NCBI RefSeq assembly: GCF_001971705.1
Contig: NZ_CP019328.1
Span: 124,001-188,000, forward strand
From: Natronorubrum daqingense
GTDB lineage: Archaea; Halobacteriota; Halobacteria; Halobacteriales; Natrialbaceae
Direction of reading: 5' to 3'
DNA: 64,000 nt
Part shown: piece after piece, positions 26,466 through 35,658 of the stretch
How the letters are laid out: each line of letters opens with the position of its first letter
Position numbering within the stretch: position 1 is the stretch's first letter
The notes under the pieces: model-generated
Told to the model about the DNA's origin: nothing
Databases searched by the model: none
What the model saw: only the letters and a program-made list of their open reading frames with translations
Made by a program: the position numbers and the translations under genes

Positions 26466-28169
26466 TTACTCCTCGCTCGCCATCGTGTGCAGTTTCGATC
26501 GAACGTCCGCACTGAGCGTGTAGGTTCGTTCCGCCGGCCGATCGAGCAGCCCCTCGGTTCGCAACTCAGAAAGCATCCCCTGGACTGCAACCGTCGATCG
26601 ACCGACCGCACCGGCGACTGCTTTCGACTCGAGTGGATCCGCTCGAGCCAACACGACGAGCGCCCGGCGAGCCGTCGTCACCGAACACTGCGATTGATCG
26701 GCCACTCGCTCGAGCGTCTCGTCGATCCACTCGCCTTCGAAAACCGCTTCGGGTGGTTCCGGTGGTGTCGCGGTGGTGATCTCCTCGGGGTCCTCTGCGC
26801 TCGATTGGGGCTCGACCGACGTGTACCCGAATTCGATGTCGTCGCCGTCTGCCAACACGATCTCCGATTCGGCCTCGTCCGTCTCGGCGTTCGCCACCTG
26901 CTCGCTGCGCTCGCGTTTGTGCGTGAGGTCGCGCACGCGATCTTGTAAGTGGTCGTTCGCCTCGCGGAGTCGTTCCACCGCGTCCGTTCGAGACTCGAGC
27001 GTCTGCTCGAGCGTTTCGATTCGCTCCTCGCGCGCTTCGACCGTCTCCGCGAGCTCGTCTCGCTCGGTCTCGAGGTCGACGATCTCCTCGTGCAACCGAC
27101 GCATCTCTTCGTCGTTCCCACCACCACCGAGTTGGGTCTGCATCGTCTCCTTTCGCGTCAGCGCGTCTGCCATCTGCTTCGCCGCACTCGAGACGTCGCG
27201 TGCCGACTCGAGTTCGTCCTCGAGGGTCTCGATCCGTTTTTCTTTCTTCTCGAGTTCATTCTCGAGTTCGACGACCCGATTTTCCTCGCGTTCCTTTCGT
27301 TCGGAGATGTGCTGAAGGTCACCGACGAGTGCATCGGAGACCGACTTGAGTTCCGGCCGCTCGAAGTCGTCGAGCCCGGGTGTCGCACCGGCGTCGAACG
27401 TCCGCTTGCGTCGGAACTGGACCTTTCGCACGTCCCGCTCGGTCCAGTCCGTCTGGACGAACGCTTGTCCGTCGTTGAGATCCGAAACGAGTTCGGAGTA
27501 CTCGGTGTCGATGATCCGGCCGACGACTTTCGTGTCGTTGTCCCACGTCAGCCGGTGCCAGACGAGCCAGTTCGCCTGCGTGATGAAATCCTTCTTGACG
27601 TCCGCCGGACGCTGACTGATGCCGAGAATTCCCAGCCCGTGTTTGCGTCCTCGCTTACTGATTTTGATCAGCAAATTCCCCGTTTCGCCGACGCCCCCAC
27701 CCTCCGGAATGTACTCGTGGACTTCCTCGACGACCAGGAGAAACGGCTTTTTCATCTTCTTCTCTTTGACGAACAACTGCCGAGCGATCTTTCGGAGCAG
27801 TTCGTCCGCGACGTCTTCGTCGAGGTACCCCGACACGTCGAGGATGACGGGAACGTTCTCCTCGAGTGCCAGCGTCGCCATCTGTTCGGCGTGTTCCGGG
27901 CCGATCTGGATGTCACACTCTTCGTCGGCTCCCGCGTGGAGCATCTCGTACTCCTCTTTGAGCCCGTAGTACTCGCCGTCCGTGTCGACGATGAGAAGTG
28001 GAAATCCCGCCTCGAGTAACTCTTCGGCGATCACCGACGCCGTATTGGACTTTCCGGAACCCGATTTTCCGGTGACGAATCCACGGCCAGTCAGAAGTTC
28101 GACGACCGGGAGTTGGAGATCCGAACTGTCGGCCGTTTCGCCGACGAGGATTTCCCGCTGGTCGCTCAC
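26466..28169 (-). CDS. HerA-like ATPase with coiled coil and C-terminal winged helix
   Basis: A 567-residue protein. Residues about 25-265 form a HerA/FtsK-type ATPase: Walker A GKSGSGKSN at about 34-42, Walker B LLVVEEVHEYIPEG at about 145-160, arginine-rich SKRGRKHGLGILGISQRPAD. Residues about 290-445 are a long heptad coiled coil (ELENELEKKEKRIETLEDEL, ERDELAETVEAREERIETLEQ). An acidic linker and a winged-helix domain (about 495-565, with CSVTTARRALVVLAR and VAVQGMLSELRTEGL) end it. HerA-like ATPases move DNA; this type without a NurA neighbour is widespread in haloarchaea with unknown role. It diverges from the 9-bp repeat array. Confidence 0.88.
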   Translation of the reverse strand: MSDQREILVGETADSSDLQLPVVELLTGRGFVTGKSGSGKSNTASVIAEELLEAGFPLLIVDTDGEYYGLKEEYEMLHAGADEECDIQIGPEHAEQMATLALEENVPVILDVSGYLDEDVADELLRKIARQLFVKEKKMKKPFLLVVEEVHEYIPEGGGVGETGNLLIKISKRGRKHGLGILGISQRPADVKKDFITQANWLVWHRLTWDNDTKVVGRIIDTEYSELVSDLNDGQAFVQTDWTERDVRKVQFRRKRTFDAGATPGLDDFERPELKSVSDALVGDLQHISERKEREENRVVELENELEKKEKRIETLEDELESARDVSSAAKQMADALTRKETMQTQLGGGGNDEEMRRLHEEIVDLETERDELAETVEAREERIETLEQTLESRTDAVERLREANDHLQDRVRDLTHKRERSEQVANAETDEAESEIVLADGDDIEFGYTSVEPQSSAEDPEEITTATPPEPPEAVFEGEWIDETLERVADQSQCSVTTARRALVVLARADPLESKAVAGAVGRSTVAVQGMLSELRTEGLLDRPAERTYTLSADVRSKLHTMASEE

Positions 28170-29412
28170 CGACTCACCTCTCGTCTCGTGTGCGATATAA
28201 TCATATACACGTACACTTTGAATACTGGGCCTTGAATATTGGCCTCGAGTCGCGATTGATTTCGGGTGTCTGCACTCGAATTGCGGTGCGTTCCAACGTC
28301 ACCAAACACACTGTGTAGAATGTTCATACCGTTTGCACTGTCCACATCACCACTACATTCTAGACGGTTCCACAGCTGTTGATCGTGAGTCGCTCGACTC
28401 GAGTACTTTTCTCGTCTCGCCCCTCGTTCGTTCGAGTAGACTGTTCACACGGTGTCCATTATCCACACTGTGTAAACTGTGTGAACTGTGTCCGCCACTG
28501 TTGCTGTGTACGCGACTTAGTTCGCCCACCGTGTCCCGATATTGTACGATTCGTGTACAGTGGATACCGTCTACACCGTCTACGGAGTGTACACCTCGAG
28601 AAATGTCTACACTGTTTGGACGGTGTACGCTGTATAGTTGGATCGGCTGGGCAACGCATTGATTGGTGTGAGCCCGAACACCGAACCGTTTTCACTGTCT
28701 CCACTCTTTGGACGTTGTCAACCTCGAAAACGGTCCACACTGTGTAAACAGTTCAAACATTCTGAACGCTGTGGACTGTCTTCGATTCTCTCGACACTCA
28801 CTCTCCTCCATACGGACGAAGTCCAAACAGTTCACACATTGTACACTGTCTAAACACTCCCTCGTCTCACTCACCGGTGAACTGTGTAGAATGTGTGAAA
28901 CGTGTAAACGTTCCGCTACTGTTAAGTCACGATGGTCGGATGATAGACGTGACACTCGCCGTGTCCACGCGCCCACAATCTAGCGACCACCGAACGATGT
29001 TCACACTGTGTACACAGCGAAGATGGTATACGGGCTCACGCCACCGTATTTGGACGATCAGATCCAACTCGGATCGTCGTTGGAATCGTTACACACATTC
29101 TACACTGTGTGGAACTTGTCCACTGTGTACGCCGCTCGAACAGTGTGCGAAGTTCGAACCGTCCACACGAGCCGGACGTTCCAACTCGCCTGTCCATCTA
29201 CCGTTGGTCGGACCCCGGCCTGCTTGCGGACCGTCTGAGCCGTCCACACCGCTCAAACCGTGCACACGGTGTGGGCCAGTGAAACGGCGTACACAGTGTA
29301 GACGTCTCGGACAGTGTGGACTTCGAACACGTTTGAAACCGTCTCGGACGTGTACGCAGTTTCGCCCGCGCCGGTCGCGCCAGTGGAGACGGCGACAGAG
29401 GTGCTCTCAGCA
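28170..29412. promoter_or_regulatory. Non-coding region with candidate partition site between HerA-like and ParA genes
   Basis: 1243 bp without a gene. The open frames found in it are chance products of a 9-bp repeat and contain stop codons between blocks. The first about 140 bp hold the promoter of the HerA-like gene (AT-rich, TATACACGTACACTTTG at about 28205-28221). The rest is the repeat array described next, which ends about 50 bp before the ParA start. Confidence 0.7.
28311..29365. repeat. Array of degenerate 9-bp units, candidate centromere
   Basis: Reading in 9-bp steps gives unit after unit that fits CNGTNYNNA. Clear blocks: 28311-28373 (7 units), 28441-28512 (8, including CTGTGTAAA, CTGTGTGAA, CTGTGTCCG in a row), 28567-28638 (8, CCGTCTACA, CCGTCTACG, GAGTGTACA...), 28686-28784 (11), 28828-28863 (4), 28882-28917 (4), 28997-29032 (4), 29087-29185 (11), 29231-29365 (15). 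Blocks at 28441, 28567, 28828 and 28882 share one phase modulo 9; blocks at 28997, 29087 and 29231 share another. This long-range phase shows descent from a continuous tandem array with few indels. It lies directly before a ParA-type gene, as partition sites usually do. Confidence 0.85.
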
Positions 29413-30243
29413 ATGACAACGACCCCACGTGCCGTCAGCGTCGCCCTCCAGAAAGGCGGCGTTGGCAAAACGACGCTCGCGATCAATCTCGCCGAACGAC
29501 TCGCCAACCGATCGAACGACGTCCTGCTCGTCGATCTCGACCAACAGGGTAACGCAACCGAGGGCGTCGGCCTGAGCGATGCGTACACCGCCTCCCAGCA
29601 CATCGGCGACGTGCTCGAGGACGGAACCGAGACGGCGCTCGAGGACGTTATCTACTCCGTCGACTCGTTCGACGTCCTGCCGGCCCACGAGGATCTCGAT
29701 AGCGTCGAGAACAGCATCCGGAGTGCGACGTTCGGCGAGTTGTGGATCAGAAACGAGATCATCGATCCCGTTCTCGGCGACGAGTACGATTACGTCGTCG
29801 TCGACTCGCCACCGAACCTCGGGCCGCTGGCTGACGCGTCGTTGATTTCGACGCAAAACGTCATCGTCCCCCTGCGGATGAGCGAACCGAGCGTCAGCGG
29901 CTTCGAACGGATGTACACCCAACAGATCGGCCCGATTCGCAAGGAGATCGATCTCGATATCCTCGCGATCGTTCCGAACTCGCTGGCCGGCGACAACGAG
30001 GAAAAGCGGATCATCGGTGACCTCGAGGGTTCACAGTTCGGCGAGTTCCTGCCACAGTTCGCTCGCTCGGCGCACTTCGACGACCCGGACTCACCCGGGC
30101 CGGGGATACGCGAACGAATCGCGTTCCGACGCGCGTGGCGTGAAGGCGTTCCACTCGCCGCACACGACCCGGAGAGCGATATGCTGGACCGCCTCGACGA
30201 ACTGGCGGCGGTCGTCGAATGCGGAGGTGTCGACGATGCCTGA
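29413..30243 (+). CDS. ParA/SegA-type partition ATPase
   Basis: A 276-residue ParA-family ATPase; ATG at 29413 gives MTTTPRAVSVALQKGGVGKTTLAINL, the normal family start; a longer frame from 29314 is rejected because it reads through the repeat array. Deviant Walker A KGGVGKTT is at about residues 14-21, switch I/Walker A' LLVDLDQQGNATEG at about 40-53, Walker B YVVVDSPPNLGPLADASL at about 122-140. ATP-bound dimers of this family bind DNA nonspecifically and move DNA-bound partner complexes. It overlaps its partner gene by 8 bp and follows the 9-bp array, giving the usual site-ATPase-adaptor order. Confidence 0.92.
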   Translation: MTTTPRAVSVALQKGGVGKTTLAINLAERLANRSNDVLLVDLDQQGNATEGVGLSDAYTASQHIGDVLEDGTETALEDVIYSVDSFDVLPAHEDLDSVENSIRSATFGELWIRNEIIDPVLGDEYDYVVVDSPPNLGPLADASLISTQNVIVPLRMSEPSVSGFERMYTQQIGPIRKEIDLDILAIVPNSLAGDNEEKRIIGDLEGSQFGEFLPQFARSAHFDDPDSPGPGIRERIAFRRAWREGVPLAAHDPESDMLDRLDELAAVVECGGVDDA

Positions 30244-30700
30244 GGACAACCGCTTCGCCGGATTAGGCGAGGCGGTCGACGACGAGGGCTCGAGTGCGGA
30301 ACCCGAAGCGGAATCGGAAACCGAACCGTCGGCTGACGACTCGAGCAGTGAATCTACTTCGGAAACGGTCGAGTACGATTCCGCTGACGACGCCGACACT
30401 GATACCGAGGTGGACGATTCCGCTGATGACACCGACACTGCAGACGAGGGTGCGAATTCGAGCGACTCGAACGATCCGAGCGCGTTCCCCTTCGACGCGA
30501 CCAAGAAGAAGACCGTCTACGTGCGCCCGGAAACGCTCGAGGAACTCGAGGACGCCCGCGCGCTCGTCGACGCGCAACTGCGAACCCAACACGACGTTCG
30601 GAACCTGACTGGCCGGGAGTTCTACGATGCCGTATTCCGGTACGCAGCCGCGGATACGGACGGGCTGATCGAGGAGATTCTCGAGGCTCGAGACGAGTAG
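30236..30700 (+). CDS. Small acidic partner of ParA, putative DNA-binding adaptor
   Basis: A 154-residue protein beginning at ATG 30236 inside the ParA gene, implying coupled translation. The N-terminal about 90 residues are very acidic and low complexity (runs of Asp, Ser, Glu, Thr, with DSADDADTDTEVDD and DSADDTDTADEG as an internal repeat). The C-terminal about 60 residues form a compact domain: FDATKKKTVYVRPETLEELEDARALVDAQL, then NLTGREFYDAVFRYAAAD. A TVYV strand followed by two helices is compatible with a ribbon-helix-helix fold, the type used by SegB, ParG and similar adaptors. No ParB HTH is present. The DNA-binding role is inferred from context. Confidence 0.75.
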   Translation: MPEDNRFAGLGEAVDDEGSSAEPEAESETEPSADDSSSESTSETVEYDSADDADTDTEVDDSADDTDTADEGANSSDSNDPSAFPFDATKKKTVYVRPETLEELEDARALVDAQLRTQHDVRNLTGREFYDAVFRYAAADTDGLIEEILEARDE

Positions 30701-30738: not shown

Positions 30739-32658
30739 TTACTCCCCTTTTTCCTCCGATTCGGATTCCGTTTGCTCGAGCGTTTGCTCGCGGACCGTCA
30801 AGCCCTTGCGACCGAGGTGCTGGAGTTGCTTGCGGGCGAAGTCCTCTTCTCGCGTCCCTCGCGTCGCGAGCACGTACACGAGTGCACCACCGGCGGGGCG
30901 CATCGTTCGTCCGGCGCGCTGGGTTCCCTGCCGTCGAGAGCCGCCGAGTCCGGAGGCGACGATGGCGAGGTCGGCCGTCGGGAGGTCGATCCCTTCGTCA
31001 CCGATTCGCGAGAGTACGAGCACGTCGCGTTCGTTCGTCCGGAACTCCTCGAGTCGGCGTCGGCGCTCGTGGTGTGGCGTTTCGCCGCTGAGAAACGGAA
31101 CGTCAAGTGCAGCCGCGAGGTCGCGACCTTGCTCGAGGTAGTCGACGAAGACGAGCGCCTTGGCGTCGGGGTGCGCCGACAGAAGGTAGCGAACGTCGTC
31201 GACCTTTCCGCGATTTTTCGCGGCGATCCGGTACCGTTCTCGGCCGTCGGCGGAGGCGTAGGCGTTTCGCTGTTCGTCGTCGCCCCACGGGACGTAGCGA
31301 ATCTCGAGTTCGGGTTCGGCGACGAACCCGGCCTCGAAGAGGGCCTCCCAGTCGGTGCCGATCGGCGGCCCGACGAGCGTGAAGATCTCGGTCTGTCGGT
31401 CGTCTTCGCGAATCGGGCTGGCCGAGAGGCCGAGACGGTGGCGCGACTGCAGGTGGGTACTCCGCCGGTAGATGTCCGAGGGCACGTGCTGGCACTCGTC
31501 GAAGACGACGAGGCCCCACTGTCGGTCGTCGAACAGCGAGCGGTGGCGGTCCATGCCGGCGATTTGGTACGTCGCGATCGTCACCGGACGAACTTCCTTC
31601 CGGCCGCCGTGGTACTGCCCGACCTGTTCGGGCTTAAGCGAGGTGTACTCGACGACGGCGTCGGCCCACTGACGGACCAGGTCGCGACTGGGGACGAGGA
31701 CGAGCGTCTCGCCACCGACGTGGGCCATGGCTCCCATCGCGGCGACCGTCTTGCCGCTGCCGGGCGGGCCGACGAAGACGCCTTCGCCGCTCTCCGCGAA
31801 TCGATCGATCCACGTTTGCTGGTACCCTCGTAACTCGATTTCGAGGTCGATCGAGAGGTCCTCGCCGGACTCGAGTTCCCGGTGGTCTTGCACCGGATAG
31901 CCGGCTTCGTAGAGCAGCCGTTTGATCGCGGCTTCGGCCCCCTCTCGAACCCAGTCCTCGGTGTCCGAAATCGGTGCGTGAACGTGCTCTTCGTCCAGCT
32001 TTTGGCGTGCGACGTTGCCCATCACTTCGGGGCTTTTGGCCTCGAGCACGGTGTAGCCGTCCTCGTGCGTCGTCAGCCGGAACTGGTGGGCGCGATCCCA
32101 CTGGCTCTCGACCCACTCCTCGAGCGGTTCGGATCGCTGGCCCAGCGCCTGGCGCATCGTTCGACAGAGCCCCTCGAACGTGTCGTGGGGTGCCTGCCAG
32201 ATGTCTTCGGCACGCAAAACGTATCGATAGCCCTGCTCGCCGTTGCCGTCCGCGAGGTGTGCGAACTGCGCTAACTGTGCGCGGGTGAACTGGTCGGGCC
32301 GATCCACGATCACCTCGCGTCGCTTCGGGAAGACGACGACGCGCTCTCGGTCGGTCAGGTCCTCGAGTTCGCTCGGGTACCAGACGACCGGATCGGGTTC
32401 GACGGACAGTCGCTCGACGTCTCCGTGCGCTGTCAACGCCTCGAGTCCTTCGCGGGCTTCGTCCTGCGTGATCTCGAGCGCTCGAGCGGCGGCCGCGGCG
32501 GTGAGGACGGGCCGCCCGGCTTCCTGGGAGGCGTCGTGAAAATCCGCGAGCGAGAACGTTTCGGCTGCGCTTTCGTCGTCGGCACTCTCGTCGGTCGGCT
32601 GCTCCTGTGACTCACTCAGCGGCTGCTTCGGGGACTCGTCGGCACTCTCGTCGGTCAC
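30739..32658 (-). CDS. XPB-type DEAD/DEAH helicase
   Basis: A 639-residue SF2 helicase. An acidic N-terminus (about 1-35) and a winged-helix-like region precede the two RecA domains. Motif I GPPGSGKTVAAMGAM is at about residues 290-305, motif II VVFDECQH at about 380-388, motif III LGLSASP, and motif VI QRAGRTMRP near residue 585; the DECQ variant and the RED-like motif GLSASPIREDD are typical for archaeal XPB/Rad25. Archaeal XPB helicases participate in repair and possibly transcription. It points toward the ParA operon and is followed on its upstream side by the CDC48 gene. Confidence 0.92.
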   Translation of the reverse strand: MTDESADESPKQPLSESQEQPTDESADDESAAETFSLADFHDASQEAGRPVLTAAAAARALEITQDEAREGLEALTAHGDVERLSVEPDPVVWYPSELEDLTDRERVVVFPKRREVIVDRPDQFTRAQLAQFAHLADGNGEQGYRYVLRAEDIWQAPHDTFEGLCRTMRQALGQRSEPLEEWVESQWDRAHQFRLTTHEDGYTVLEAKSPEVMGNVARQKLDEEHVHAPISDTEDWVREGAEAAIKRLLYEAGYPVQDHRELESGEDLSIDLEIELRGYQQTWIDRFAESGEGVFVGPPGSGKTVAAMGAMAHVGGETLVLVPSRDLVRQWADAVVEYTSLKPEQVGQYHGGRKEVRPVTIATYQIAGMDRHRSLFDDRQWGLVVFDECQHVPSDIYRRSTHLQSRHRLGLSASPIREDDRQTEIFTLVGPPIGTDWEALFEAGFVAEPELEIRYVPWGDDEQRNAYASADGRERYRIAAKNRGKVDDVRYLLSAHPDAKALVFVDYLEQGRDLAAALDVPFLSGETPHHERRRRLEEFRTNERDVLVLSRIGDEGIDLPTADLAIVASGLGGSRRQGTQRAGRTMRPAGGALVYVLATRGTREEDFARKQLQHLGRKGLTVREQTLEQTESESEEKGE

Positions 32659-32702
32659 TGCTCGAGGCTAACGGCGGTGTGGGTAAACCGATTTCGTTCG
32701 TC

Positions 32703-34928
32703 CTACTGCGTCGGTTTCCCGTTCTCTCGAGCCGCCTCGAGGTGCCGGCGTTCGACGACCACTTCCCCGGCCTTCTCGTTCGCCGTTTCGGGATCGTACT
32801 GGTCCGCGACTTCCCGAATCGCCTTCATCGAGGCGGTTCGCACCAGCGCCTCGAGGTCCGCGCCGGTGTAGCCCTCGAGTTCGCTCGCCAGTTCTTCGAT
32901 GTCGATCTCGTCGGCGAGTGGCTTCCCGCGGGTGTGGACCTCGAGGATCTTCTCTCGAGCCGCCTGTCCGGGTTCGGGGACGAGCACGTGGGTGTCGAGT
33001 CGACCCGGCCGGAGCAGAGCGGGGTCGATCTGGTCCTTGCGATTCGTCGCGGCGAGCACCACCAGATTCGGGTTCTCTCGCATGCCGTCGAGTTCGGTCA
33101 GGAGCTGTGAGACGACGCGTTCGGTGACCTCGTTGCCGTCGCCGCGTGCGGACGTGATGGCGTCGATTTCGTCGAAGAAGACGATGGAGGGGGCGGCCTG
33201 CCGTGCCCGTTCGAACACCTCTCGGATCGCCTTCTCGCTCTCGCCGACGTATCGATCGATGATTTCGGGGCCATCGACGCGAACGAAGTTGACGTCGGTC
33301 TCACCCGCGAGCGCCCTCGCGAGGAGCGTCTTCCCGGTTCCGGGCGGGCCGTGCAACAACACGCCGGAGGGCGGTTCGGTGTTCGTCTCCTCGAAGAGCC
33401 GATCGTACGTGAGGGGCCACTCGACGGACTCGCGGAGGATCTGCTTCGCGTCCTCGAGTCCACCGACGGCGTCGAAATCGGTGTTCGGCGATTCGGCGAC
33501 GTACTCGCGCATCGCCGAGGGTTCGACGGACGCGAGCGCGCTGTCGAAGTGGCGTTTCGTCACCGTCGGATCTCGGTTCCACTCGTCGCGCTCGTCCGCG
33601 TCGGTCGGCCGGTCGCGGATCGCGGCCATCGCGGCCTCGCTCGCGACGGCGTCTAAGTCCGCGCCGACGAAGCCGTGCGTTCGGCGCGCGATTTTCTCGG
33701 TGCTGACGTCGTCCGCGAGTGGCATCCCACGCGTGTGCACCTCGAGAATCTCCGTTCGCCCGTCGACGTCGGGGACGCCGATCTGAATCTCGCGGTCGAA
33801 GCGCCCGCCCCGCCGGAGTGCCGGATCGATCGAGTCGACGCGGTTCGTCGCGCCGATGACGATCACCTCGCCACGAGCGTCGAGGCCGTCCATCAGCGTC
33901 AGCAACTGGCCGACGATTCGGTTCTCGGCGTCGCCCTCGTCGTTGCGAGCGCCTGCGATGGAGTCGATCTCGTCGAAGAAGACGATCGTCGGAGCGTTCT
34001 CTTCGGCCGTCTCGAAGACCTCTCGCAGGCGTTCTTCGGACTCTCCCTTGTACTTCGACATGATCTCCGGGCCGGAGATCGTCTCGAAGTGGGCGTCGAC
34101 CTCGTTGGCGACCGCGCGAGCGATCAGGGTCTTTCCGGTTCCGGGCGGGCCGTACAACAAGACGCCGGAGGGCGGCTCGACGCCGAGTCGCTGGAAGAGT
34201 TCGGGCTCCGAAAGCGGGAGTTCGATCATCTCCCGGACGAGTTCGAGCTCCTCGTCGAGGCCGCCGATATCCTCGTACGTGACGCCGGAGGCGGGTTCCG
34301 TTTCGGTGGTCGTCGACGAACGCGAATCGGACGTCGTCGTGCCCGAGTCGGTGTCGCTCGAGGACTGGTTCGCCGACGCGCTTCCGGTTTCCGACTTCCG
34401 GCCCCCTCTCGAGCCGGTGCCGGCGATTCTGATCGTCGTCGTGCTGGTAATCCGAACGTCGCCGTCCGGGTCGGTGTCGGTGACCTTGAACGGTTCCTGT
34501 CCGAGCCCCTCGAGACGGATCTGCTCGCCGGCACGAACCGGCCGATTTCGGAGGGTTTTGGCGGCTTTTCGCTCGGCGATCTGCTGTTGATTCGCGGTGA
34601 ACGTCGGCGGCGGGACGAGTGTGACTCGACGCGCTTCGGCGATGGTCGACGTATCCTTCGTGCGGACGGTGACCGTGTCGCCGACGTGTGCGCCGGCGTT
34701 CGCCCGCGTGTCGCCGTCGATCTGGATGACGTTTTCAGGGACGGCGGAATCCGCGGGCCACATCTTCGCGACGGTCGCCTTTTCGCCGTCGATGACGACC
34801 GTATCGCCGCTCAACACCCCGAGCTGTCGACGTGCTAACTCCGGGATTCGCGCGACACCTCGCCCGGCGTCTCGCTTTTCAGCAGCACGAACAGTCAGCG
34901 ACACGCCGTCCGAATCCGCCTGACTCAT
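32703..34928 (-). CDS. CDC48/VAT family AAA+ ATPase
   Basis: A 741-residue protein; ATG at 34928 (MSQADSDGVSLTVRAAEKRD) is the normal family beginning and 82 upstream codons are not coding. The N-domain (about 1-190) has RIPELARRQLGVLSGDTVVI (double-psi barrel) and an acidic, Ser/Thr/Gly-rich linker (about 190-225), then D1 (about 225-460) with GPPGTGKTLIARAVANEV and IVFFDEIDSIAGARND, then D2 (about 495-735) with GPPGTGKTLLARALAGE and IVFFDEIDAITSARGD. Both Walker A and B motifs are intact. It unfolds ubiquitin-like tagged or misfolded proteins, often for the proteasome. It is one of several CDC48 paralogues usual in haloarchaea. Confidence 0.95.
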   Translation of the reverse strand: MSQADSDGVSLTVRAAEKRDAGRGVARIPELARRQLGVLSGDTVVIDGEKATVAKMWPADSAVPENVIQIDGDTRANAGAHVGDTVTVRTKDTSTIAEARRVTLVPPPTFTANQQQIAERKAAKTLRNRPVRAGEQIRLEGLGQEPFKVTDTDPDGDVRITSTTTIRIAGTGSRGGRKSETGSASANQSSSDTDSGTTTSDSRSSTTTETEPASGVTYEDIGGLDEELELVREMIELPLSEPELFQRLGVEPPSGVLLYGPPGTGKTLIARAVANEVDAHFETISGPEIMSKYKGESEERLREVFETAEENAPTIVFFDEIDSIAGARNDEGDAENRIVGQLLTLMDGLDARGEVIVIGATNRVDSIDPALRRGGRFDREIQIGVPDVDGRTEILEVHTRGMPLADDVSTEKIARRTHGFVGADLDAVASEAAMAAIRDRPTDADERDEWNRDPTVTKRHFDSALASVEPSAMREYVAESPNTDFDAVGGLEDAKQILRESVEWPLTYDRLFEETNTEPPSGVLLHGPPGTGKTLLARALAGETDVNFVRVDGPEIIDRYVGESEKAIREVFERARQAAPSIVFFDEIDAITSARGDGNEVTERVVSQLLTELDGMRENPNLVVLAATNRKDQIDPALLRPGRLDTHVLVPEPGQAAREKILEVHTRGKPLADEIDIEELASELEGYTGADLEALVRTASMKAIREVADQYDPETANEKAGEVVVERRHLEAARENGKPTQ

Positions 34929-35022
34929 ACGCGTTCCTTTCGTGTGAGCCACCTTGAGAATTGTCCTGTCAGCGCACTCTCGCTCGAGGGGCTGTTCGGT
35001 GACCGGGCGTCTCCCTCGCGAG

Positions 35023-35658
35023 TTACAACGCGTTCTCGAGCAACCGGTCGATTCCACGCCGGATGCGTTCGGACGCTGACGGGCCGGATATCCCCAGTTG
35101 CTCGCCGACAGCTTCCGTCGACGCTGCGCGAGGGACTTCGAAATAGCCGATATCCCGAGCTGCGACGAGTGCATCGTACTGCTCGTTCGTGAGCGAAAAC
35201 GGCGGATCGTCGGCAGCGGACTCTCGAGTCAGTCGCTCGAGGTGGAACGTCGCGCCTCGCTCGAGACAGAACTCTCGGTAGGCGGCGAGCGCGTCCCGGT
35301 CGGGGAATCGGGCGCGAGCCCACCAGCCGTCGACGGTGACGATGCCGCCAAGCGGAATGGTGCCGAGTTCGATGTACTTGCGGTAGATTGGAACCGGCGG
35401 GTCGCGGAGTTCGATTCGATAACGGGCGTGTTCGTCCGCATCGTCGATGGCAACGGCGTCGGCGACTGTGGGATCGGCTGTCACTGCGTCCCGAAATTCG
35501 TCGTCAGGGTCGTCGACGACGCGACAGACGGCGACGGGACGGTCGGGATCGACGACGAGGAGTCGTTCGATGTAGACCGTCACTGCCGGTACCGCGGCGA
35601 CAGCATTCGTCAGAGGGAGTTCCAGCGACGTCAAGCGAAACTCCGCGATGAGCCCCAT
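35023..35658 (-). CDS. HTH_10 (bacterio-opsin activator type) transcriptional regulator
   Basis: A 211-residue regulator starting with ATG at 35658 (MGLIAEFRL), as is usual for this subfamily. Residues about 1-150 form the sensory/beta domain (VYIERLLVVDPDRPVAVCRVV, GIVTVDGWWARARFPDRDALAAY). HTH_10 lies at about 160-205: FSLTNEQYDALVAARDIGYFEVPRA and STEAVGEQLGISGPSASERIRRGI. It is divergent from the R2lox-like gene (83 bp apart), which it may regulate. Confidence 0.9.
   Translation of the reverse strand: MGLIAEFRLTSLELPLTNAVAAVPAVTVYIERLLVVDPDRPVAVCRVVDDPDDEFRDAVTADPTVADAVAIDDADEHARYRIELRDPPVPIYRKYIELGTIPLGGIVTVDGWWARARFPDRDALAAYREFCLERGATFHLERLTRESAADDPPFSLTNEQYDALVAARDIGYFEVPRAASTEAVGEQLGISGPSASERIRRGIDRLLENAL

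Follow-up and report, generated by a model that had tools for sequence, protein, structure and literature searches.

In the delta/omega system of the Streptococcus plasmid pSM19035, a small ParA and a small ribbon-helix-helix (RHH) partner, ParB, act on contiguous short degenerate repeats; activation of ParA takes four or more of these in an unbroken row and is lost once the row is interrupted (PMC9499535). The type Ib system ParF-ParG-parH of TP228 has a parA-like gene followed by a small gene, whose product joins an N-terminal tail to a C-terminal domain, and a centromere of degenerate boxes; ParF is stimulated by the flexible tail of this partner, which binds the operator as well as the centromere (PMC7308502). 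In archaea, SegA-SegB of Sulfolobus combines a ParA-family ATPase with a downstream partner and with sites upstream of the operon (PMC5120986, PMC9178275), and the AspA-ParB-ParA system serves partition of the Sulfolobus plasmid pNOB8, where a small protein spreads from an operon-side site (PMC5120986). For DNA segregation, the consulted passages of a 2024 review on archaeal cell cycles name only SegAB and ParA/ParB homologues (PMC7617429). Here, we analyzed a 64,000-nucleotide stretch of Natronorubrum daqingense DNA (the window; contig NZ_CP019328.1, positions 124,001 to 188,000), which belongs to the 202,531-bp replicon C2 of genome G000 and in which a kilobase of 9-bp boxes separates parA from a divergent HerA-like ATPase gene. 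We read this as a partition locus because it unites a small ParA, an overlapping small partner gene, upstream repeats, confinement of the boxes to the replicon, and covariation of box and partner. From these comparisons, the array is most probably the centromere (parS) of a three-part haloarchaeal plasmid partition system made up of ParA, a small acidic partner, and the 9-bp box lattice. Its components, in window coordinates, are as follows.

28310-29364, no strand assigned: the whole 9-bp lattice and proposed centromere, about 71-73 palindromic units ACNGTSYRS in ten blocks, located by autocorrelation and by a cyclic hidden Markov model (HMM) with Viterbi decoding.
28911-28961, + strand: conserved core TTCCGCTACTGTTAAGTCA...GGATGATAGACGTGACACTCGCC (also written TTCCGCTACTGTTAAGTCA...GGATGATAGACGTG), which splits the array and holds a TATA-like GTTAAGT at 28921-28927.
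29413-30243, + strand: parA, encoding a 276-aa deviant Walker-A ATPase with KGGVGKT near residue 13 and without an N-terminal DNA-binding domain.
30236-30700, + strand: partner gene, encoding a 154-aa proposed centromere-binding protein and overlapping parA by 8 nt.

The locus resembles type Ib partition in its gene and repeat layout. ParA matches the Pfam families AAA_31 (4e-36) and CbiA (1e-15), has the deviant Walker A motif, and lacks the N-terminal DNA-binding extension. The small gene lies directly downstream, is putatively co-transcribed with parA, and in most of the family shares 4-11 nt with it, and repeats with a putative centromere function lie upstream of parA at 81 of the 83 loci that carry both genes. 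As in pSM19035, small ParA, small partner, and contiguous short degenerate repeats occur together, and the shortest haloarchaeal runs (about four boxes) and satellite sites (6-9) are comparable to the four-repeat minimum established there. However, the pSM19035 unit is an asymmetric 7-mer with far fewer repeats per site, whereas the haloarchaeal unit has 9 bp, is self-palindromic in its first class, and is repeated up to about 100 times; autocorrelation of the array contains no period-7 series, only 9 and its multiples. TP228 likewise shares the gene order, the tail-and-domain partner, and the degenerate boxes, but sequence similarity was not found, and the haloarchaeal partner differs in its long acidic linker and in an N-terminus that is invariably NRFAGL or NPFDDL. 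SegB acts on two discrete imperfect palindromes and serves the chromosome, in contrast to this dense plasmid lattice of about 72 contiguous boxes, and pNOB8 has three genes, a winged-helix AspA, and one 23-bp palindrome instead of two genes and about 70 boxes. The canonical ParB, a CTPase with HTH domains that acts on a 16-bp parS, also differs from a 154-aa partner without a Pfam match and from 9-bp boxes.

The array is best read as a selected, order-wide feature and a type-Ib-like variant, not as a new principle. A sequence-only reading of this DNA had announced a new type of archaeal centromere, which is too strong since RHH-bound arrays of short degenerate boxes are known in bacteria (PMC9499535, PMC7308502); its contrast with discrete palindromic sites is incomplete, as it omitted the pSM19035 heptads and TP228 parH. 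We found no description of 9-bp arrays or of the partner family in the open-access literature, and subscription papers could hold one.

The periodicity of the array is strong. Against 500 dinucleotide-preserving shuffles, the interval 28311-29365 gave z = 8.7, 9.7, 7.8, 5.8, 6.8, and 5.8 at lags 9, 18, 27, 36, 45, and 54, and in 500-bp windows it is the strongest lag-9 stretch of the whole 64 kb. The remaining positive peaks (lags 7, 11, 20, and 25; highest z 4.0, at lag 11) adjoin multiples of 9, as expected because the units are palindromic. A nine-state cyclic HMM trained on 27 orthologous regions converged from random starts on one motif, rotation aside; this learned unit, ACNGTSYRS, is its own reverse complement at rotation 5 (correlation 0.98). 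Consequently, the earlier proposal of some 70 nonrandom nine-base units in this interval is borne out by the lag-9 signal and by the 71-73 units of the HMM, and the unit then given, CNGTNYNNA, corresponds to the learned ACNGTNYRN in another rotation. The Viterbi path comprises ten blocks summing to 639 bp and 71 units, none assigned to a strand.

28310-28345 and 28355-28372: blocks 1-2, phase 5 modulo 9, 6 units.
28440-28493 and 28539-28637: blocks 3-4, phase 0, 17 units.
28685-28783: block 5, phase 2, 11 units.
28818-28853 and 28881-28916: blocks 6-7, phase 0, 8 units.
28996-29031, 29095-29184, and 29230-29364: blocks 8-10, phase 7, 29 units.

Within each block, the boxes are strictly in register. 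The phases that the sequence-only reading had seen shared between blocks were recovered (28440, 28539, which includes 28567, 28818, and 28881 in phase 0; 28996, 29095, and 29230 in phase 7), and across the 27 orthologous arrays successive blocks kept offset 0 more often than chance allows (55 of 202 versus 22 expected), mostly over short gaps. The continuous 9-bp lattice deduced from those phases stands in part only: phases 2 (28685) and 5 (28310 and 28355) had gone unmentioned, and the lattice of the window is partly broken rather than continuous. TRF alone detects just three tiny fragments of it, and Rfam has no match in 28100-29500. Folding of the + strand gave z = -4.6, but palindromic boxes self-pair by construction, and the array was not read as RNA.

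Conservation among close relatives indicates that this lattice is maintained. ParA occurs at 79-100% identity in 27 genomes including that of the window (79-98% in the 26 others, all of the same family), mostly on contigs of 100-270 kb and in two cases on larger ones. The partner gene is present at all 27 loci, and so is a period-9 array upstream of parA (lag-9 z 5.2-12.8, 46-101 units); the array sequences themselves have diverged. Both comparisons suggested by the sequence-only reading, lag 9 against shuffled controls and arrays beside orthologous parA genes, therefore came out in its favor. In the orthologue pairs that are still alignable, substitutions per site amount to 0.10 at the A, C, G, and T positions of the box versus about 0.18 at degenerate ones (0.22 at the N position; Fisher p about 1e-9, for pairs that share genomes). 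Among array indels of at least 7 bp in such pairs, 8 of 12 are exact multiples of 9. Judged from these sequence patterns, the lattice is under selection. It could also be viewed as a functionless mutational relic or a decayed three-codon coding repeat, given that 9 is three codons, that several open reading frames (ORFs) of 90-180 aa cross the array, and that some whole-unit indels look like slippage. But block phases differ by non-multiples of 3, one- and two-base indels are common, the core positions of the box are kept, and throughout the order this gene pair is accompanied by the 9-bp period with differing units, which together make this explanation extremely improbable. Barring alignment artefacts, the indel pattern and the box-class results already refute it. 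A protein-coding origin of the repeat was rejected, as block phases and indels ignore the frame.

Beyond these close orthologues, the array follows the partner gene. Relatives of the partner C-terminal domain were found in 165 of 392 genomes of the order Halobacteriales, and when 295 genomes from across the phylum were searched with a profile, all 23 positives fell in this order. We extended the survey of upstream DNA to 35 loci that are more distant and have a recognized parA, and to 18 loci of a second class. A period-9 array was present at 81/83 loci with parA and partner and at 0/9 related ParA loci without the partner. Where overall periodicity was weak, short runs were detected near the gene (z 6-9, 0/200 shuffles), and the same test found no runs at the nine partner-less loci. 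Fixed models, with most weak-signal class I loci and five class II loci outside the training set, assigned ACNGTSYRS (class I) to 57 loci and CCTATTNNA (class II) to 24, counted as loci and not as independent events; neither class was assigned at two partner-positive and nine partner-less loci. Class I boxes are palindromic in three separately fitted clades (0.98, 0.95, and 0.94), whereas class II boxes are directional (0.37) and often form two opposed half-arrays. ParA relatives at about 50% identity (L141-L149) have neither partner nor array. The halovirus phiH (L260) carries a ParA with a small gene overlapping it by 8 nt, whose protein is seemingly unrelated, and no 9-bp array is visible upstream; this locus is apparently another partition type.

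The box class is matched by the partner protein. In the partner, a conserved N-terminus, MPEDNRFAGLGEAV, is followed by a variable acidic linker and a conserved C-terminal domain, KKTVYVRPETL...LTGREFYDAVFR; the N-terminal peptide is invariant within each class (NRFAGL in class I, NPFDDL in class II). At the third position of its predicted-strand motif, just before the hydrophobic-Tyr pair, Thr or Ser ([KAPQ][KHT][TS][VIL]Y[VP]R, as in KKTVYVR) goes with ACNGTSYRS at 57/57 loci and Pro or Ala (as in QRPLYAR) with CCTATTNNA at 24/24; the motif of G103, missed by the script, reads KKTAYVR. This match is consistent with recognition of the boxes by the partner strand and is not proof of it. The centromere might instead be bound by a host-encoded protein, with the partner acting only as ParA adaptor, like ParB on pNOB8, where AspA binds the DNA. 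The unconfirmed DNA-binding fold of the partner fits this arrangement, as does its acidic linker, which is unusual for a DNA-binding protein outside haloarchaea. However, the unit class follows the partner class and not the host, G000 having both on different replicons, and no third conserved gene accompanies the operon across the family, so that a host-encoded binder seems unlikely.

The same arrangement can be recognized on named plasmids. On Haloferax mediterranei pHME505, boxes resembling AATTGTAGA form a class I array in the gap of roughly 870 bp that precedes a gene annotated as 'ParA family protein'; orc1 follows downstream. On Halobacterium salinarum pNRC100, the boxes are of class II and make up two opposed halves on either side of TTATAAG, and Haloterrigena turkmenica pHTUR04, whose array region is that of G028, repeats the arrangement of the window. 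On all three, the partner is annotated as 'hypothetical protein', and their gene tables list no repeat, although such tables carry repeat features unreliably.

The distribution of boxes within genomes also ties them to the parA replicon. Class I boxes form clusters at just two places in G000, both on C2: the array itself and a small satellite site, C2:56532-56600 (L164), about 96 kb from the array. This satellite, of some 6-8 class I boxes, is flanked by a small ORF and a gene for a PAS/HTH-like regulator; the Orc1 gene is about 9 kb away, and parA lies roughly on the other side of the circle. A satellite of about 6-9 units with the same neighbor genes occurs in G000, G101, G102, and G109 (four species, replicons of ~200 kb), separated from parA by roughly half the circle, and the 753-kb replicon of G001 has four satellites. 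In ten further genomes, three-unit matches all lay on the parA replicon and none on the chromosome, and the reversed-pattern control gave 0. A second parA-partner pair in G000 (C4:24140-25600, L151), with a ParA 43% identical, has class II boxes; class I pattern clusters occur only on C2 and class II pattern only on C4, each adjoining its own parA, and two address classes would therefore exist within one cell. The proposal of a centromere ahead of the parA-partner operon, already made in the sequence-only reading, has thereby gained strong comparative support (27/27, 81/83, 0/9, and confinement to the parA replicon). That reading had overlooked the palindromic unit, the promoter-like core, the satellite site, and the order-wide spread.

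Box arrays on plasmids may also be replication-origin iterons, binding Orc1/Cdc6 or Rep and marking the plasmid origin. On pHME505 the partner gene, and on pNRC100 parA, does have an orc1/cdc6 gene no more than about 2.5 kb away, and the G+C content of the array is lower than that of its surroundings. C2 has its own Orc1/Cdc6 gene, but it lies about 87 kb from the array, and the array accompanies parA and the partner even where the other neighbors change. ParA loci without the partner lack arrays, and the unit type follows the partner type; we therefore regard an iteron function as very unlikely.

The gene neighborhood of the array on C2 includes, beside the divergent HerA-like ATPase, an XPB-like helicase and a Cdc48-like AAA ATPase (window 26466-28169 and 30739-35174). 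The pHTUR04 locus is also flanked by HerA-like and helicase genes, and part of a replicon of 160-270 kb therefore looks conserved in the family. A tie of the array to the divergent HerA-like gene was rejected, as pHME505 and pNRC100 have the array without that gene.

The conserved core at 28911-28961 is probably the promoter of the parA-partner operon, of haloarchaeal appearance and with a long leader. It was recovered inside 26 of the 27 orthologous arrays (up to 3 differences allowed) and lies upstream of parA, by about 480 nt here and by 167-188 nt in G001 and G006. Its position within the boxes suggests that the array is probably also autoregulatory, and it raises the question of whether the boxes are an operator only, through which the partner represses its own operon while ParA acts elsewhere. 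The TTATAAG between the inverted half-arrays of pNRC100 agrees with such a role. However, 46-101 boxes over a kilobase far exceed the need of an operator, and satellites lie far from parA, in the same place in four species and confined to the replicon. Moreover, operator function is not exclusive, as TP228 ParG combines it with that of a centromere (PMC7308502). An operator without centromere function is therefore improbable, and we retain the centromere reading with repression as a likely addition.

The fold of the partner is less clear. The protein has no Pfam or NCBIfam match, none of 21 family members matched the Pfam RHH families up to E = 5, and sequence and profile searches of PDB chains, SegB-like ones included, gave no match at E <= 1. 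An AlphaFold2 monomer model of the C-terminal domain contains helices at 19-40, 47-60, and 62-74 (pLDDT 86 on the deeper alignment, 56 on a shallow one), and residues 1-18 are extended with low confidence; Foldseek found no significant match to the model in the PDB. From its strand-plus-helices layout, an RHH fold is plausible. The RHH nature that the sequence-only reading gave to the 154-aa protein is accordingly unconfirmed, as the modeled helices follow a low-confidence extended stretch and neither Foldseek nor the PDB profile searches returned a match.

In the mechanism that we propose, one partner dimer would occupy each 9-bp box, with a short strand inserted in the major groove, and lateral contacts between dimers on adjoining boxes would build up a nucleoprotein filament. 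A flexible N-terminal tail (MPxDNRFAGL...) would reach nucleoid-bound ParA-ATP and trigger hydrolysis, the plasmid then following the ParA gradient; by analogy, the invariant NRFAGL/NPFDDL peptide with the acidic linker is a good candidate for this ParA-touching tail. Partner bound to boxes on either side of the promoter-like core would repress its own operon. Box sequence and partner strand sequence together would form the private address of a replicon, so that plasmid classes could share one cell without cross-reaction. The metabolic repressor MetJ binds tandem short palindromic met boxes, with one RHH dimer on each and cooperative side-by-side contacts; its boxes have 8 bp and number a few per operator, and it works without a ParA.

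It is important to consider the observations that weigh against a partition role or against box recognition by the partner. The strand region on which recognition would depend is modeled at low confidence and has no similar structure in Foldseek. The box classes coincide with two clades, and the class match may reflect one or few ancestral changes. Two partner-positive loci, G126 (L225) and G203 (L236), have no recognized array, and the partner-domain genes G174 (L201) and G146 (L202) have no recognizable parA beside them. Furthermore, haloarchaea are polyploid, and active plasmid segregation is not established for them in the papers found (PMC5120986, PMC7617429). The strand motifs of G126 (QGPIYPR) and G203 (QRSIYPR) go with neither box class clearly, possibly representing further classes.

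The sorting of a chromosome and several megaplasmids in halophilic archaea has been listed as an outstanding question (PMC5120986). The present locus offers a concrete cis-acting site, a protein that probably binds it, and two specificity classes from which plasmid incompatibility can be predicted, and both classes are available in model strains (class I on pHME505, class II on pNRC100). The family also offers naturally varied pairs of protein and DNA in which the joint change of partition protein and centromere can be studied, and it may supply a stability cassette for haloarchaeal vectors. More tentatively, and with considerable doubt, the locus could represent an order-wide partition family with a novel, non-canonical-RHH DNA-binding domain, in which the spacing is fixed at 9 bp and the evolvable box serves as the address of the replicon, so that coexisting systems would sort megaplasmids independently within one cell.
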